Of a stretch of 64,000 nucleotides of DNA, positions 6,001-51,755 are shown piece after piece. The stretch lies in contig CANQLV010000009.1 in assembly GCA_947624785.1 (NCBI GenBank), positions 1 to 64,000 of the forward strand. Direction: 5' to 3'. The notes under the pieces were generated by a model. The model did not search any database. It saw only the letters and a program-made list of their open reading frames with translations, and had not been told where the DNA came from. Position numbers and translations under genes: made by a program. The stretch is from Akkermansia muciniphila (GTDB taxonomy: Bacteria > Verrucomicrobiota > Verrucomicrobiia > Verrucomicrobiales > Akkermansiaceae). Positions within the stretch are counted from its first letter, which is position 1, and every line of letters starts with the position of its first letter.

Positions 6001-8798
6001 CCCAGCGTCAGGGCTCCCGCATTGTTGCGGGTATTGACAGCCAGCGTTCCCGCTCCGCCCAGGCCGCCAAGCATCTGGAGGCTGTCCCCGCTGGAGATGA
6101 CCGCCGTTCCGGTGCCGGACGTTTCCACGGATACCTTGCCGTTGAGGTTGACGTTCACGGTGGCTCCGCTAAAGATACTCAGCGCCGTGGCCGCATTCGT
6201 CCCTTTCAGGGTGATGTCCCCGGCCAGGGAGACGCCGCCCGTGACGGTATTGGAATTCAAGTTGCTGAACGTCACGGTGACGTTCTTCTCACTGCCGCCC
6301 AGCGTTACATTGCCCTGCCCCCACGGAGTCAGGGTCTGGCCGGAGACGATGGAAGCGTCCCCGATATTGTACGTCAGATTGACCAGGTTGCCCGTGCCGG
6401 CTATTTCCGTATCCCCGTCATAGGAATTCTTCACCCAGCCCGTTTTAAAACCCCAGCCGTTCGCACCGGCGTCGGAAATGATCTTGAGGCCACCCGTTCC
6501 GGTGATGGTGGATGAAACCGCGGTGGCATTTCCATAAATGGCTCCATTCAGGGAAGCAAATCCACCTGCGGCATTCAGGACGATTTTCATGTCGAAATTC
6601 GCGCCGGCGGGATTTCCGTTCCTCAGATGCAGGGTGGAGCCCTTCCCCATGGTAAGGGTTCCCGTCCCCGTTACCTTGTTCGCGGGTCCAACTACGTCCA
6701 TCACGGTATTTTCCCCCAGCGTAATGTTCAGGTTGGAGCTCCACGTTCCGGAGTTGTCCGCAAGCTTCACGGTGCCCTGTTCCACCACCAGCGTTCCCCC
6801 ACCCGAAGCGTTGAAGGAATTAAGGCCCAGCGTTAACGTTCCGGTCCCCGTCTTGGTGACGGTGCCGTTGATTCCCCCGTTCAGGGTGGAGTCCCCCGCT
6901 CCGATCACCAGGGAACCGGAGCCGCTGTTGGTCAATTTGCCTCCATAGGTACCGGCCCCCAGCAGCAGGCTGCCGCTTCCCGTACGGGTGACGGTCCCCG
7001 TCCAGCCGGCCAGGGAAGCCCACGTTACGGCATTCCCGTTCGTGTCCACCAGAATGGAATTGGATGCCAGCGCATCCGTCCTGATCTGGCCGGAGACGTC
7101 CGCCGTAATGCCCGCGCCGTACTTGAGCGCGCCTCCATTAAAGATGATGTTGCCGGTGCCCAAAGCGCCGGCATGCTGCATTTCCACCGTGCCGCCGCCC
7201 AGCAGGATTTCTCCGGAAAAACCGGCGTTATCCGTGGCGATGGACAAGGTTCCGCTGCCAGTCTTCTGCAGCTTGGAGCTTCCCGCCAGGGAACCGGTTC
7301 CCGTCCACGTGTAGCTGGTGGCCTCCGCATTGACGACGATCAGGCCCGGATCCACCTGTCCGGCGATGTTCACGGTCTGCGGCGCATTGCCGGCGATGTC
7401 TCCAAAGATGACTCCGTTGCCGTTGGCAAAGGGCAAGCCCGCATTCCAGGGGGAATTCCCCGTTCCCCCCACCGTCCACGTATTGTCTCCGCCGCCCGTC
7501 CAGGTCAGGGACGTGACCTGCTCCACAACGAATTTCAGGGTATTGTCCGTCGTGCTCCAGTTGCCGATGTAGTCGGTCCCCAGCAGAATGGTATTGGCCA
7601 AGTCCCCGGTGATGCCGCCCGTGGCATTGATCAGATTGTACGAGCCCGCGCTCCAGCTCACGCTGTCGCTATTCTCCAGCAGCAGACTGCCGTTCACCGT
7701 CAGGGCGCCGTTCAGGGCCAGCATGGCGTTGCCGTTCACCGTCATGTGGGTGGCGTCAATCCGCACGGCCGCGCCCAGGTTCAGGTTGCCGGTCATCGTA
7801 TTCTGCCCCCCAAGGGACAGGACGCCGGAGGTCATGGTCAGGCCGGCATTGCTGTCCACGGCGGAGACGTCCAGGCCCACTCCCGCGGACAGGGAAAGCC
7901 CGCCGTATCCCGCGGAAATGCCCCCGATGGCCGCATTCCCCGTTACGGAAAGGTTCTTGTTCGTCCCCATCCCGGAGGCATGACTGACAATGAGGGTGCC
8001 CCCTTTCAGCTCCACGCCGCCCGTGAAGGAAGAGGTTTTGGACAGGGTCAGCGTTCCGGAGCCGTCCTTGACCAGCAGCCCGGTTCCACGGAATACATTG
8101 TCACTGTTCGTAACCATGTTCCCGGCCCCGGTAATGGTCAGAGCGCCGTTCAACTGGATATAATGAGTGTCATCAGCAGAAATTGTCATGGTGCTGGCGG
8201 CATTCACCACCTCCACGGTGCCGCCGCCCGCCGCGACCGTCAGGCCGTTGCCGAAGGATCCGTCAGTTTCCTTGGTAATCTCCAGGCGCCCGTTGTTCAA
8301 GGTCCAGTAACTCGTATTGACGGCCATGGAGCCCAGCCCCGCACCGTCATACGCAAATTCTCCCACGCGCAGCACGCCGCCGTTGGTGACGGTTACATTG
8401 TAGCGCGTGTAATTATCCCCCTTCATGCTGAGGCTGGCTCCCGGAGAGCTCAAATCCAGCGTGGCGTTGTCAATGGTCAGGGTCTTGTCGGGAGGATTGG
8501 TCGTGGTTCCTGCCTTCTGCGTCGCTGTCGTTTCAATCTTGAACACGCCGCCGCCGGTAATGGTGAGGCTGTTGCTTCCGATGTTGAACGCCCCTTCCGC
8601 CTGGGTAACCGTCTTTCCGGCCTCAATAGTCAGCGTCAGGCCATTGGCGCCGATGGTCGTAGTTTCATTCCACGTAACGTCCGTATCAAACGTCTGGTTG
8701 GTCGTAATGGTGAGGGGATCCGCCTGAACGGATGCGGACAACGCGGCGCAGCAGGCAAGAAGAGCGGACAACAAATTGAGGGGCAAATGCAGCTTCAT
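1..8798 (-). CDS. giant autotransporter with beta-strand (PATR-type) repeats, 3' end outside window
   Basis: The frame starting at ATG 8798-8796 was read in translation from 8798 down to about 8350 and from about 4370 to the window start. It is open and in one register in both, which implies about 2930 residues inside the window. The first 26 residues (MKLHLPLNLLSALLACCAAL then SASVQA) form a Sec signal peptide. The body is low-complexity Gly/Thr/Asn/Ser-rich repeats of the form GTLTLSGANTYTGTT, the autotransporter-associated beta-strand repeat, with WNG...GTWS-type linkers near 3700. The last visible residues (YFHMWMEGTGSYAKLD and GYQLTTWGGTVGMDVDLSD) look like the start of an outer-membrane beta-barrel. 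Inference: a surface-displayed or secreted adhesin-like passenger. Passenger function cannot be assigned. The frame between the two translated stretches was not read codon by codon. Confidence 0.88.
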   Translation of the reverse strand, partial: MKLHLPLNLLSALLACCAALSASVQADPLTITTNQTFDTDVTWNETTTIGANGLTLTIEAGKTVTQAEGAFNIGSNSLTITGGGVFKIETTATQKAGTTTNPPDKTLTIDNATLDLSSPGASLSMKGDNYTRYNVTVTNGGVLRVGEFAYDGAGLGSMAVNTSYWTLNNGRLEITKETDGSFGNGLTVAAGGGTVEVVNAASTMTISADDTHYIQLNGALTITGAGNMVTNSDNVFRGTGLLVKDGSGTLTLSKTSSFTGGVELKGGTLIVSHASGMGTNKNLSVTGNAAIGGISAGYGGLSLSAGVGLDVSAVDSNAGLTMTSGVLSLGGQNTMTGNLNLGAAVRIDATHMTVNGNAMLALNGALTVNGSLLLENSDSVSWSAGSYNLINATGGITGDLANTILLGTDYIGNWSTTDNTLKFVVEQVTSLTWTGGGDNTWTVGGTGNSPWNAGLPFANGNGVIFGDIAGNAPQTVNIAGQVDPGLIVVNAEATSYTWTGTGSLAGSSKLQKTGSGTLSIATDNAGFSGEILLGGGTVEMQHAGALGTGNIIFNGGALKYGAGITADVSGQIRTDALASNSILVDTNGNAVTWASLAGWTGTVTRTGSGSLLLGAGTYGGKLTNSGSGSLVIGAGDSTLNGGINGTVTKTGTGTLTLGLNSFNASGGGTLVVEQGTVKLADNSGTWSSNLNITLGENTVMDVVGPANKVTGTGTLTMGKGSTLHLRNGNPAGANFDMKIVLNAAGGFASLNGAIYGNATAVSSTITGTGGLKIISDAGANGWGFKTGWVKNSYDGDTEIAGTGNLVNLTYNIGDASIVSGQTLTPWGQGNVTLGGSEKNVTVTFSNLNSNTVTGGVSLAGDITLKGTNAATALSIFSGATVNVNLNGKVSVETSGTGTAVISSGDSLQMLGGLGGAGTLAVNTRNNAGALTLGGDVSGFSGTLNLSGANLYLNADTALAGTLNASAAKVTALRKQNVTGTLNAASLAVDGSALSADGATLTVSNLALGADAGVSLDINGNITAGTYTLVSWDNLTAGNFADAGTMTLTGTLASLYQGTFNVNTGEKTVTVSVSMADGVVVWDGNPIGAVDNTTTYLFDGTHTGVASLTGDVNAKAIYFNNGVGQDLELTNNGGKLSGNGALTKLGEGKVTFNSSNNDYSGAVNIKEGTVAVKANMALGTGTVTVDRTGRLEIGVTGGIAGILGATMPTINGGTIAFVSGGANTLGTNLANGSGINLEVAGAGTALTVSTAQTKTALTTVGEGAVLNLGKNGGGGESILYGNLMVNGGTLNTTVGDPFGYNNTTNFGTLTVNNGTWNITGGNTTMANTRMVFNNSRVILNLTGAENGLDLFSGTNYIITQQSATGMSSFSVAEGGTASGTINALTLRGGTAIFDIARGNFSLDDVNTSDLKLDLVVATEQSGTNLTKQGNGVLELTKANTYTGQTLIKEGTILLTGAGKLGTGAVTLGGNGDAFLTYAVDADQTVANVIGGTGSITQKGPGKVTLSGANTYTGTTHAEAGTLAAGSATAFGTSAVSISSGATLDIGNYAVNNAVSVKASTADALSTGAITSDGGAIGSLTLGSYSRLNVAGSMAMAAGSSFTFDMTGLTAGGSALVTLTGGLTLTGTHNVTLNNYDTLTDAGDYSLLTVGSGTLTLGSFNIGDLINDAHPELTYTLGLSADGKTLQLKIESSANMLTWNGTADAGTWSAGDVSNWTYGGGGSAPATTDGQPLLFDNTAANKTVTITEDVAPSSIVVSNSGDNTYTFQGDGHITGATTILTKRGDGTLQIRNTNTYGGSTSLEGGIVDINGDGALGTGSIIFGGGTLQASGNVTLTQTMVQKNAGDAVKLAASGAGTTLTVDTAGQDSFLSLNWNISGNGAVALGNIANTKILSGTVTVANGSTLKLSGGNEIALSGVLKNINGTLAKTDGGSLLVKAANGNDALNGTLSNAGGSIVLSGYGAATANRTITVNGTLNADLIDVTYGVTLDLKKDLDIATLQIGGGTMGGNTQASAVNVGTGVTLTSTGVKLGGANGQGALGGNLNINGGTAVLGGINLENDSNSGITLAGNGTITLGGDITGASGTLALGEGTLNSTADWSASLSVLLNAASGKTATVDTTGGSITLNGALSGTGSLLKTGTGTLTLGNASTGYTGMITLTSGTLALTADGYKGALNITGGTLTGGNNHKGTKNVTVNAASGVSAISLGGLSGSALKTVNMTDAGTVISGINGAANLDSASLVVGTGNVSKTQDLAGSTSMIQFDANGTQLEIETLTLTLSADVINAMQGWGAGDRTAWLNLTNGVLGYGTAIFNPLLESLGFTVTGLNGGSIGITGDATQIYAVGSEDKTVTNNSELDPYRAVIVDGNLALNLPGVDDTADGLTINNLSGAASGVINITSTNDKTASVILNNELLGTDPNTSGPDTKYSGTINGGAANITKTGDGSLELAGTLNTSGTLDMQDGKLILSGTADLGSIKLNSSNSGSLSSLDITGKTEAGTLTDEGNGGNLSIGKDGTLTLTGADSELSSSTVSGDGVLQVADNASLALNGASKLDGVQVDLDGNGTLELGNASNSISGLTGSGALNNGSALEITTAGNALYEGALSGEGSITMNGAGTQVLKGNGAIGQALSVTKGTLELTGAEGGNGSVTYKSLTAGSGAHVRLSPVGEGNGAVNTTLTVANGLNLQNSHLDLVINTNRDDLFSSPVITVQAGDVNLDGTTVSLGSLGDYDDPADPTANLNFTLVDATGAGTVSANGATVDPSGYFDFYYQEFGIRTEGGKIVVTGMVKTENAFMDAANTANSEAGANLLWNNRGNAPKGTQLGDLREAVRNDIQTGNTSRAARSMAAAAGSTVNALGTAQKDALRDQMGWIRNRTTLMGVNPAYVNEDLPYFHMWMEGTGSYAKLDTRGDESGYQLTTWGGTVGMDVDLSD

Positions 8799-9415
8799 AA
8801 AGAAAAACAATTAATTATAAACACATTAAACAAGACGTGGTCTTTTAGCAGAGATGAGACATGCTATTAGGTAAATGAAATATCGGATTTGAAATCCGGT
8901 GTCAATCTGGAAGTGCCGTTTCCAAGGCTTTAAATTATTTCCATTATTTCCATCCTATTCCATGCCCTCATTCAAATTAGCCTCATTATTCAAAAAACAA
9001 AACAAATAGAACTTAAAATAAACATCTGCGGATAAACAAATTAGTTCATCACCGGCACTCTCATGCCTCCTCTGCCGCCCTTCTTGGCCGGATTTCAAAT
9101 CCGTTCTTTTTCTTTTCCGGCATGCAGGGCCTTCAGGCAGCCGGGAGGCCATCCATGGAGGGCACAATGAAAAACCTCCTAAGGATTTCATCATGAAACC
9201 GCTTGTTTCCGAAAACGCTGCCGCGGGAAAAGAAGCGTGAAATCCAGGCAGTCCCATGAAAAACAACATCCTTCCCATAAAAGGCATTCCACAGTCAGGG
9301 ACGAATTCCGGGACCGGTCCGGAGGGAGCAAAAGCAGCGCGGGATGTATCTTTCCTCCTTGCTCCCCGCCCGGCAAGTTGCTAGAATACGTCAAGCAAGT
9401 TTTTCCCCTTTTCCC
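8799..9415. other. 617-bp intergenic region with paired palindromes
   Basis: No convincing gene is present. The half next to the autotransporter gene is AT-rich and carries a TATAAT-like hexamer on the minus strand near 8815, a plausible promoter for that gene. A perfect 15-bp palindrome pair (8884-8898 and 9089-9103) lies inside. A 110-aa minus reading frame here (8955-9287) is probably not a gene, because part of it matches a second copy of the same repeat near 51.7 kb. A TAGAAT hexamer at 9382-9387 could serve as the -10 of the following plus-strand gene. Confidence 0.5.
8884..9103. repeat. 15-bp inverted repeat pair bounding a 190-bp AT-rich segment
   Basis: Left arm 8884-8898 reads CGGATTTGAAATCCG and right arm 9089-9103 reads CGGATTTCAAATCCG, its exact reverse complement. 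Each arm is itself a palindrome with one central base. Next to the right arm on the minus strand is a stretch whose translation (GDELICLSAD) resembles the equivalent stretch (NDELIFFHAD) beside the pair at 51563-51755. This supports a shared dispersed element rather than chance. It could be an invertible segment or a REP/MITE-like repeat. Confidence 0.65.
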
Positions 9416-47686: not shown

Positions 47687-50023
47687 CTATCCGTCAGTTT
47701 CGGAATATTCGTTGTAATAATGAAAACGGGAGTTTTTGAAATTCTCCGCATTGAGGATAACAGCTCCGGAACGGAATTCTCCTTTGTCCGCCAGCCCCTG
47801 GATGACGGGGACGTACTGCCTCTCGATCATGCCGCACCTGATGACATAAAGGACCAGGTCCGCATGGCGCGCCATGAGGGAGGCATCCGCCACGGCCTCA
47901 TAAGGGCAGCCGTCCAGAATGATGCGGTCATACCGGGCGCGCCAGTACCGGAGCAGCTCTTCCAAACGGCCCCGGGTCAGCAAGGCGACGGGATTGGGGG
48001 GAACGGGGCCTGCCGTCACCAGGTCAAATCCCGGGAACCTCCTGCCGGATTGCAGGACGGAATCCGGAGAGACCTGCGGATTCATCAGCAGGTGCACGAG
48101 TCCCCTGGCATTCTTCCCGCCGTAAAAGGCGGAAAGACTGGCCTTGCGGAGGTCTCCGTCAATGAGAAGGACTTTTTTCCCGGTCTGGGCATACGCGGCG
48201 GCCAGGTTCAGCGCCGTAAAGGTCTTCCCTTCACCCGCCCTCGTGGACGTCAGGAACAGGACGCGGGGAGCTTCCTCCGGATTGGGCAGCAGCATAAGTT
48301 CCGCATTGTTGCGGAGGATGTGAAAGCATTCCTCCATGAAGGAGCGGCCATTCGTGACGACCAGCGGCATCTTCTTCCGCTCCTTTCCGGAAAGCAGGGG
48401 CAGCTCCCCTGCCAGCGGCAGGTCCGTCAGGCCGGCAAGGTCCTTCTTATCCCGCACCTTTGTATTCAGGGCGTTTCCGGCCAGCAGGGTCACAAGGCTT
48501 GCAAAAGCGCCTCCGGCCATGCCGCCCAGCGTCATCAGGGAGAGTTTGGGCGCTACGGGGGCGTTGGAGCCGAACGCGGGTTCCAGAATGCGGGCGCTCG
48601 GTTCCGTCGTGGCCAGGGCCAGGGCGTTTTCCTCCCTCTTTTTCAGCAGCATCAGGTAAAGCTCCTCCATGACCTTCTGCTCCCGGAGCAGAGGGACCAG
48701 GCCTTCATCCTTGGAAGCCATGTCCGACAAAAGCCGGTTGAGTTCATTCCGCTCCTTTTCCAGCTCACCCATCCTCACTTCCAGCGCGTTGCAGTAATTG
48801 GCGATGGAACGGCCAATGGACTCGCGCATCTCCTTCATATTCTCCGCGAGGGAGGAAACCATGGGATTCTGCCTTCCCGCGCTGGCGAACAACTTTTTAT
48901 GCTGGAGGAAATTGTCATTGAAAAGTTCTATCTGCTTGGCAATTCCCGCATCCTGAATGCCTATATTGGCGGGGATCATGTCCTGCCGCCGGCTCCGGTC
49001 CGCCAGCAGCCTGGCGAGCACCTTCACCTGGATCAACTCCGTCCTGGTGGAAAAAAGTTCCGTCCCTATCTCCTGCACCCTGTTGAACGTGGCATCCAGC
49101 GTCGTATCCATGTCCTTGATGATCCTGCTGTTGCGCTTGTAGTCAATCACCTGCTTGTCTACGCCGCCGAGCTGGCCGCCAAGCTTGCCAATGCGTTTGA
49201 CAATGAAATCCTCCGCCCTCGAGGCGGCCATTTGCTTCTCCCGCCTGGAATGGTCATTGTAAACCTCAATAAGATAATTCAGGGCGTCTTCCGCCTTTTG
49301 CGGATGGGAAAGCCTCAACGTCAGCTCCAGCAGGCTGCTTTCCTTGGAATCGGGCCGCGTTACGCTCAGCCGGCCCAGCATTCCGGCGGTGGCCTCCTTC
49401 ACGGAAACGCGCTCCACGAAAATGGTCCTTCCCATGCTGCCGGAAGAAAAATGGGAAGTAGGGCATACCTTCACCGTGGCGAAGGGAAGCTTCAGCGGGA
49501 CGCCGAATTTTCCCTGCATAACATTTTCCCGGCCCTCCTTCTCCCGGTAGGACAGGGAAAATTCCCGGCCGTTCAGCGGAGTGACCGCCAGCGAACAAGG
49601 ATGAAACGCCGCCTCTTCACTGAACTCCGCCTTCAGGGGAGTCGTATGGTAAAGATCCACTTCCCGGATATTCCGCTTCTCCCAGTAGGAGACATCAAGC
49701 CCCAGCCCCTTCACGACACGGCTCATCACCTCCGAGGACTTGACCACATAGCTCTCATTCGCCAGATTGGCCTCCCCCGGCTCGAACCCCAGATCGGAAA
49801 GAATGATTTCCGAAACCTGGGCGTTCTTCTGCTTGTCATCCCTCAGCATGATGCGGGCGGTCTTCTGGTACGAATACCCCTGCCGGGCGCAGATGAAATA
49901 AGCCAGCCCCCCGCCCAGCAGGGCGCACGCCAGAATCCATGGCCAGTACCTCCTGGCCGTGGAAAAAATGAACCGGAAGGAAAAAATATCGTTGTCCTCA
50001 GGCTGTATCACTGAAACGGGCAT
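47687..50023 (-). CDS. Wzc-like polysaccharide co-polymerase / BY-kinase
   Basis: 778 residues. First membrane segment at about 29-46 (WILACALLGGGLAYFICA), then a long periplasmic coiled region, then a second segment (LSLMTLGGMAGGAFASLVTL) near 510. The cytoplasmic kinase has Walker A STRAGEGKTFTALNLA near 590 and Walker A' VLLIDGDLRKAS near 613. The Walker B-like stretch is RIILDGCPYEAVADA near 699, where the usual ILDTPP is ILDGCP. The tail FHYYNEYSETDG has only three tyrosines instead of a long cluster. It controls chain length and export with the Wza-like protein. Kinase activity is likely but the changes are notable. No phosphatase gene is adjacent. Confidence 0.9.
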   Translation of the reverse strand: MPVSVIQPEDNDIFSFRFIFSTARRYWPWILACALLGGGLAYFICARQGYSYQKTARIMLRDDKQKNAQVSEIILSDLGFEPGEANLANESYVVKSSEVMSRVVKGLGLDVSYWEKRNIREVDLYHTTPLKAEFSEEAAFHPCSLAVTPLNGREFSLSYREKEGRENVMQGKFGVPLKLPFATVKVCPTSHFSSGSMGRTIFVERVSVKEATAGMLGRLSVTRPDSKESSLLELTLRLSHPQKAEDALNYLIEVYNDHSRREKQMAASRAEDFIVKRIGKLGGQLGGVDKQVIDYKRNSRIIKDMDTTLDATFNRVQEIGTELFSTRTELIQVKVLARLLADRSRRQDMIPANIGIQDAGIAKQIELFNDNFLQHKKLFASAGRQNPMVSSLAENMKEMRESIGRSIANYCNALEVRMGELEKERNELNRLLSDMASKDEGLVPLLREQKVMEELYLMLLKKREENALALATTEPSARILEPAFGSNAPVAPKLSLMTLGGMAGGAFASLVTLLAGNALNTKVRDKKDLAGLTDLPLAGELPLLSGKERKKMPLVVTNGRSFMEECFHILRNNAELMLLPNPEEAPRVLFLTSTRAGEGKTFTALNLAAAYAQTGKKVLLIDGDLRKASLSAFYGGKNARGLVHLLMNPQVSPDSVLQSGRRFPGFDLVTAGPVPPNPVALLTRGRLEELLRYWRARYDRIILDGCPYEAVADASLMARHADLVLYVIRCGMIERQYVPVIQGLADKGEFRSGAVILNAENFKNSRFHYYNEYSETDG

Positions 50024-50047: not shown

Positions 50048-50845
50048 TTACAGGCTGATGGCGATGACGGCAATCAGCAGGGACAGGCCCGAAAGGCCCC
50101 AGGCGTAGTACTGGGCGCTTTCGCTCCTCATGTTGATCTTGCGGTCCGACGGAGTGACATAAATAATATCATTCTGCCGGATGTAGTAATAAGGGGAGGA
50201 GAAAATGGACTTGCTGCGCAGGTCCAGCTTGACGATCTTCCGGTCACGCTCCATTTCCCGGATCAGCACGATGTCCCGGTTGCCGTCGATATTCAAATCT
50301 CCCGCCCGGCTGATGGCGTCAAAAATGGTGACGCGCTGGCCGTCCACCTGGTAGGAGCCGGGATTATTCACCTCCCCCAGAACGGAAAACTTGAAATTCA
50401 TGATCTGGACATTGACGGAAGCGTCCTTGATGTAATCACTGTTGCGGAGCTTCGCGGAAATGTCATGGGCAAGCTGGGAGCACGTCTTCCGGGCGGCCTT
50501 CATCCTTCCGATGACCGGCAGGACAATATATCCCTCGTCGTCAACCAGATACCCTTTAGGCCGCGAATTGCCGGCGTTGTTGGAGATGGAATTGCCCATT
50601 TCCGCCATAATGAAGGGGGTAGTCAGTTCCGGCTGCTTGCTGCTGACGGAAATATAAAGCTGATCGTCTTTTTGAATAGTCGTCTGGTATTTGGTGACTA
50701 TATCCTGCCGGGTCTCCCCCGTAATGTCCTGGATATAGAGAACCTCTTTCGGATTGACGCAGGAGGCCAGCAGCATGGTGCAGGCAGCCAGGGAGGCCAG
50801 GCGGAAAATGCCGGAAGAAAAGAGAGGGGGATGTTTCATCATCAT
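50048..50845 (-). CDS. Wza-like polysaccharide export lipoprotein
   Basis: 265 residues. Lipoprotein signal with lipobox LLASC, lipidated Cys at residue 29. The poly-export domain follows (KDDQLYISVSSKQPELTTPF, LVDDEGYIVLPVIGRMKAAR), then one SLBB-like domain (FSVLGEVNNPGSYQVDGQRV). A C-terminal hydrophobic helix (YYAWGLSGLSLLIAVIAISL) differs from the amphipathic exit helix of E. coli Wza and could be an inner-membrane anchor. It is shorter than Wza. Exports the polymer with the Wzc-like protein. Confidence 0.9.
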   Translation of the reverse strand: MMMKHPPLFSSGIFRLASLAACTMLLASCVNPKEVLYIQDITGETRQDIVTKYQTTIQKDDQLYISVSSKQPELTTPFIMAEMGNSISNNAGNSRPKGYLVDDEGYIVLPVIGRMKAARKTCSQLAHDISAKLRNSDYIKDASVNVQIMNFKFSVLGEVNNPGSYQVDGQRVTIFDAISRAGDLNIDGNRDIVLIREMERDRKIVKLDLRSKSIFSSPYYYIRQNDIIYVTPSDRKINMRSESAQYYAWGLSGLSLLIAVIAISL

Positions 50846-50881: not shown

Positions 50882-51544
50882 TCAGGATTCCTCCTGCTTG
50901 GACGGGAAAAGCACAGGAACGGAAAGATCGTTCCTGATGAGCACGCCGCCCGAGATGTTCCTGAAAGCGTCCTCGCACTGCCGCACATCCTTATGGGCCA
51001 GCAAGCGGACAACGGTTTGGAAAACGATCCTGGCGTCCATGAACAGGGAAACATTCCGGGCATAAACGATGTCGTAGCACAACCGCCTGTAGAACGGGAT
51101 TCCGTTCCTTCCGTATACCTGGGCCATGCCGGTCAATCCGGGCCGGACGGAACAGCGCGCCATGCGACAGCGGCCGGGAAAAACATCCAGCTGCTCCGGA
51201 ATCCATGGCCGGGGGCCTACAATGGACATGTCTCCCTTGATGATGTTGACCAGCTGGGGGAGTTCATCCAGGGAATAGCGGCGTAAAAAAGTTCCCAGCG
51301 GAAAAGACCTCAGGTCATCCGGAAGCAGGAGCCCCTCCGGATCACGGGCATCCGTCATGGTCTTGAACTTAAAAACCCTGAACAATTTCCCGCGGTACCC
51401 CACACGCGTCTGGGAAAAAAACGGAGACTTCCGCGTATGAACCAGGAGTATTATGGATATAATGGCCAGAAGAGGCGATACGAACATCAATGTCCATAAG
51501 GAGATAGCAATATCCAATACACGTTTTCCAAAAAACTTATACAT
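50882..51544 (-). CDS. initiating sugar-phosphate transferase (bacterial sugar transferase family)
   Basis: 220 residues, a short-form polyprenyl-phosphate transferase. One N-terminal membrane segment (VLDIAISLWTLMFVSPLLAI) precedes the catalytic domain: QTRVGYRGKLFRVFKFKTM, then RRYSLDELPQLVNIIKGDMS and IVGPRPWIPEQL, with VRPGLTGMAQVYGRN. It transfers the first sugar-1-phosphate to undecaprenyl phosphate and so starts repeat-unit synthesis. It is the first gene of the locus. Its ATG lies 18 bp from a palindrome that bounds a possible invertible promoter. Confidence 0.94.
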   Translation of the reverse strand: MYKFFGKRVLDIAISLWTLMFVSPLLAIISIILLVHTRKSPFFSQTRVGYRGKLFRVFKFKTMTDARDPEGLLLPDDLRSFPLGTFLRRYSLDELPQLVNIIKGDMSIVGPRPWIPEQLDVFPGRCRMARCSVRPGLTGMAQVYGRNGIPFYRRLCYDIVYARNVSLFMDARIVFQTVVRLLAHKDVRQCEDAFRNISGGVLIRNDLSVPVLFPSKQEES

Positions 51545-51562
51545 GACTCCGCCCGCAAACTA

Positions 51563-51755
51563 CCGGATTTCAAATCCGGCATCTGCCTGTCCGGGAAAAA
51601 ACGTTCATCATCAATGATGGTAAATAACTTGCATGATTCTAAACTTTCTTTTCATGCCGCCTTGCGGAAGACCTGCCATTTATATATTCAACCACAAGTA
51701 TCTGATCCGCATGAAAAAATATTAATTCGTCATTGACGGCGGATTTGAAATCCGC
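51563..51755. repeat. inverted repeat pair upstream of the exopolysaccharide operon
   Basis: Left arm 51563-51579 CCGGATTTCAAATCCGG; right arm 51739-51755 GCGGATTTGAAATCCGC. The inner 15 bases (51564-51578 and 51740-51754) are perfect inverted repeats. The enclosed AT-rich segment has a TAGAAT hexamer on the minus strand (51636-51641) pointing to the operon. A related pair lies at 8884-9103. An invertible promoter or a dispersed REP-like element are the two readings. Confidence 0.65.

Follow-up and report, generated by a model that had tools for sequence, protein, structure and literature searches.

The intergenic element preceding a Wzx/Wzy-type exopolysaccharide (EPS)/capsule operon of Akkermansia is likely to be a phase-variable promoter switch, that is, an inverton of the CGGATT-NNN-AATCCG family in which the promoter is split between the invertible segment and its fixed flank and on which a tyrosine recombinase encoded elsewhere, P0001, acts in trans. 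The element was located in a 64-kb window, by which we mean the whole stretch of DNA analyzed. Its near arm, CGGATTTCAAATCCG, occupies positions 51564-51578 on the EPS side (+ strand), and the exact reverse complement forms the far arm at 51740-51754 (- strand), so that the 15-bp perfect inverted repeat encloses 161 bp (51579-51739), exactly where the initial annotation had placed it. The repeat extends inwards (20 nt at 90% identity), and each arm is itself a palindrome of 6-3-6 architecture, CGGATT-TCA-AATCCG, with a 3-bp center, a feature missed in that annotation. The window contains four exact sites, and five when up to two mismatches are allowed, compared to 0.41 in shuffled sequence; the EPS repeat is real, perfect, and beyond chance.

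The operon itself lies on the minus strand and begins with a gene encoding an undecaprenyl-phosphate sugar transferase (Bac_transf, PF02397; 50882-51544), the ATG of which, at 51544, is 19 nt from the arm, followed by genes encoding a Wza-like polysaccharide export protein (50048-50845) and a Wzc-like chain-length/tyrosine autokinase (47687-50023). An intergenic position ahead of a polysaccharide gene is also that of the Akkermansia invertons carrying CGGATT..AATCCG, the inverton motif of Jiang 2019 as used in the available portion of PMC13343947, and the EPS element shares with these invertons the motif, the genus, the element sizes, and the nature of the downstream surface genes. The best characterized of them, the cps1 inverton, occurs in both orientations, flips in culture, in mice, and in humans, and correlates with capsule (PMC13343947). 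Published cps1 (the amuc_2077-2098 locus) adjoins ftsK, while no FtsK was found among the neighboring products tested, a subset of the window open reading frames (ORFs); for this reason the EPS locus is probably an additional cps locus (cps2/cps3-type) and not cps1. A second inverton, likewise overlooked initially, is present in the window at 8884-9103 (sites 8884-8898 and 9089-9103), has a TCA/TGA center identical to that of the EPS element, and is conserved in the related species G026. Its -35 element, TTGACA (8900-8905, - strand), points left, where a large ORF (7173-8870) is found on the + strand.

Analysis of the stretches around such sites in the Akkermansia genome containing the window (G000; 3.08 Mb in 24 contigs) places the EPS element within a large family. 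Exact CGGATTNNNAATCCG sites number 70 in the whole genome, in which a control pattern, the motif read backwards, has no match. When sites were paired with two mismatches allowed and matched centers preferred, 43 inverted pairs were obtained, with distances mostly of 144-208, 258-328, or about 500 bp, and the EPS arms make up one of them. The centers are reverse-complementary in all 43 pairs, a count to be read with the knowledge that the pairing favored matched centers, and comprise 22 different sequences. A center-blind test, in which neighboring exact sites within about 500 bp were compared, returned matched centers in 26 of 27 pairs; the 27th joins two adjacent elements, the true partners of which carry one mismatch. 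Site-specific recombination that involves an overlap region would call for matched centers of this kind, and the 3-bp center is probably part of an overlap in which partner sites must match, which would explain why each pair keeps matched centers. The initial annotation had named single palindromes at hundreds of loci as the observation that would speak against a switch, and nearly all sites proved to be paired. The interiors of the elements form paralogous families within G000. Additionally, two contigs start at a GCT-centered site (L051, C10:1; L057, C20:63), which suggests that a flipping element interrupted the assembly there.

The elements also share an arrangement of promoter motifs. In 37 of the 43 elements of G000 one arm, and never both, has TTGAC on its inner side at a distance of 2-3 nt (six elements lack it at either arm); across the 86 ends, the rest of the inner 60 nt contains only two further copies (P about 1e-87). 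Immediately outside the arms, a TA at a distance of 1 nt is found at 28 of 86 ends, against a background of 6% (P 3e-14), and is missing in about a third of the 43 elements. The pattern is repeated in G026 (TTGAC in 33 of 41 elements, TA at 26 of 82 ends), in which many loci are orthologous to those of G000, such that the two counts are not fully independent. A further genome, G067, holds about 40 copies of a near-uniform 195-bp element in which TTGACAG lies on the inner side of one arm and CTATGCT flanks the second arm externally; these copies share one center (TTG/CAA) and mostly face genes on the -10 side, several with signal-peptide-like N-termini. In most of the copies examined, the TATGCT-like -10 and TTGACA stand at opposite ends, an OFF-like state. 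Read as TTGACN + 1 + 15 + 1 + TANNNT, the arrangement yields a spacer of 17 bp, the usual sigma-70 optimum. Because TTGAC lies inside one arm and TA is enriched just outside the arms, the recombination arm is taken to provide the 17-bp spacer between the two halves of a promoter, a predicted -35 element within and a predicted -10 element outside the invertible segment.

At the EPS locus, the putative -35 element, TTGACG (51733-51738, + strand), lies 1 nt inside the far arm and points away from the EPS genes, CATTGAC or CATTGCC being present in all relatives, while the candidate -10 element, TAGTTT (51557-51562, - strand), lies 1 nt outside the near arm and is represented by TAGTTT or TAATCT in 8/8 genomes. 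Inversion would bring TTGACG, now beside the far arm, up to the near arm, where the 15-bp site and one base on each side would form the 17-bp spacer to the fixed TAGTTT, and the EPS operon would be transcribed. In the assembled orientation the two motifs stand at opposite ends with the -35 facing away, and the operon is accordingly read as OFF. The predicted ON promoter matches only 8 of 12 consensus positions and would leave a leader of about 6-9 nt before the ATG. Among those G000 elements with clear marks, 7 appear ON-like vs 21 OFF-like.

Comparison between genomes revealed elements of the family in opposite orientations. Among 19 elements with flanks and interiors both alignable between G000 and G026, seven are inverted between collinear flanks (both flanks aligning in six of them), and the remaining 12 show no inversion. 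Genome comparison thus shows that elements of the CGGATT family flip, as has been published for cps1. The EPS element, with a segment of 161-162 bp, shows a single orientation in all eight genomes compared (G000 and seven relatives), and we infer its flipping from its membership in this family. The central claim of the initial annotation, that an invertible promoter switches the EPS operon, is supported by the published inverton family, by sister elements flipped between species, and by the genome-wide repetition of the same anatomy. Separately, seven loci with collinear flanks hold different elements in G000 and G026, the center differing in six and the length clearly differing in six, with cassettes that differ in both length and center between the flanks at L025/L168, L026/L170, L050/L189, L055/L180, and L059/L181; inverton cassettes thus apparently undergo replacement at fixed positions.

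Several other readings of the EPS element were weighed against the split-promoter switch. The initial annotation had proposed that the segment contains an entire promoter, as in the capsule loci of Bacteroides, such that the assembled orientation would be ON. The hexamer on which this proposal was built, TAGAAT, does exist (51636-51641, - strand) and points toward the EPS gene, but an acceptable -35 is missing, and in relatives the hexamer is replaced by CAGATT or TATCAT, whereas TTGAC and the outer TAnnnT persist; given also that the genome-wide pattern is a -35 at the arm with a -10 outside, TAGAAT was rejected as a -10 element and the whole-promoter reading is considered quite improbable. 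A further suggestion is that the palindromes act as transcription terminators or REP-like repeats that bracket the intergenic region without recombination. The right arm and its tail do score as a terminator-like hairpin; however, such repeats would not account for centers matched pairwise across 22 sequences nor for arms placed as promoter spacers, and segments inverted between species contradict this explanation, which we regard as extremely improbable. An improbable but somewhat less strained reading is that the EPS element could once invert but has since become locked in the OFF state, as a single orientation in 8/8 genomes might suggest. Against it, in every species the two sites have remained intact and their centers still match, flipping occurs at other elements, and the OFF state is common in assemblies, as the G000 counts illustrate. 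A functional split-promoter switch remains the preferred interpretation.

As the initial annotation had stated, no recombinase gene is present in the 64-kb window; a candidate was found 72 kb further along the same contig. No match to PF00239 was obtained in the G000 genome, and a serine recombinase was for that reason set aside as the flipping enzyme. Eight tyrosine recombinases are encoded by G000, namely XerC, XerD, three resembling prophage or island integrases, and three paralogs, P0001 to P0003. P0001 (123936-125033), a conserved orphan and putative tyrosine recombinase, matches PF00589 (E 5e-12) and retains R, R, H, and Y of the catalytic set, but the conserved HxxR is DxxR in P0001 and likewise in P0002 and P0003 (L067, L068, L069). 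Across 32 Akkermansia genomes the number of sites is bimodal. P0001 orthologs (91-100% identity) were found in 12/12 of the genomes that are rich in diverse pairs (at least 36 sites in every case) and in 0/19 poor genomes (0-11 sites). These 12 genomes probably belong to a single clade, however, so that one gain or loss event may account for the correlation. Among the non-Xer enzymes of G000, only P0001 is also present in both G022 and G026, the latter of which (74 sites) encodes as tyrosine recombinases only XerC, XerD, P0001, and one other of a type absent from G000. The P0001 orthologs group with full support in one clade, in which the branches are very short, and P0001 has evolved more slowly than P0002 (for example, identity to G050 of 99% vs 79%), as would be expected if many sites constrain the enzyme. 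Scans of viral contigs for the element flank and the recombinase family gave no match, and a plasmid scan gave one weak match.

Paralogs of P0001 are associated with similar sites of their own. In six genomes, the P0002 orthologs (L068, L072-L076) have an AGGATT-NNN-AATCCT pair, with its sites 188-191 bp apart, just upstream, and the centers of this pair vary between species while always being matched within the pair. The exact AGGATT-NNN-AATCCT pairs found in the 32 genomes lie upstream of P0002 orthologs, with the addition of one upstream of another family member in G083, and other members of the P0001 family have further 6-3-6 pairs. Taken together, these sequence comparisons make P0001 the most likely candidate for flipping the CGGATT pairs, and it would recombine both 15-bp sites of the EPS element in trans. 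The same switch might instead be operated by XerC/XerD, a mobile-element integrase, or an IS110/Piv-type recombinase, and this we hold to be unlikely, if less so than the readings considered above. In its favor is G067, the 13th rich genome, with 88 sites and no P0001, in which the flipping could fall to a P0001 relative whose own promoter carries a CGGATT pair. Yet XerC and XerD are also found in G083, a genome with few sites, the remaining integrases are not common to G000, G022, and G026, and the paralogs of P0001 carry similar private pairs. G067 had itself been considered as a counterexample and then as a case of a mobile repeat, and both views were set aside, its copies being near-identical split-promoter invertons that mostly stand before genes.

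Invertible promoters are well known from other bacteria. In Bacteroides, the capsule promoters are inverted by Mpi, a serine recombinase that serves many loci in trans, and the whole promoter lies inside the segment, while fimS of E. coli is a single locus at which a tyrosine recombinase (FimB/FimE) flips a segment likewise containing the whole promoter. The likeness to Bacteroides drawn in the initial annotation is apt insofar as short invertible promoter segments precede polysaccharide operons and many loci depend upon one trans-acting enzyme, but the Akkermansia enzyme is likely to be a tyrosine recombinase, and the -10 would lie outside the flipping segment. With fimS, the use of a tyrosine recombinase is likely to be shared, but in Akkermansia the elements are spread over dozens of loci, among which the matched 3-bp centers vary. 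The class of element is already known; the motif was rediscovered as inverton group 138 in PMC11892184, according to the portion of that work available, and a proximity search across gut strains reported there paired no invertase with the Akkermansia group. In the portions consulted of PMC13343947 and PMC11892184, neither a recombinase nor a split promoter is described. What is new is the split-promoter anatomy (in comparison with literature other than Jiang 2019), the predicted OFF state, the matched-center address pattern, and the candidate recombinase.

Extended to the genome as a whole, these observations suggest a switchboard in which one orphan tyrosine recombinase would serve some 40 promoters, each site doubling as a 17-bp spacer across which the -35 flips while the -10 stays, the 3-bp centers acting as partner addresses, and several paralogs of the enzyme controlling themselves via a private pair; we consider this broader model slightly more probable than its negation. 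With a single candidate gene, the idea that a common gut symbiont uses one switching enzyme for its capsule and for dozens of its surface proteins becomes testable. The predicted split-promoter anatomy would allow any assembly to be scored directly for ON and OFF states, and the matched centers suggest how many switches served by one enzyme may avoid rearrangement of the chromosome.
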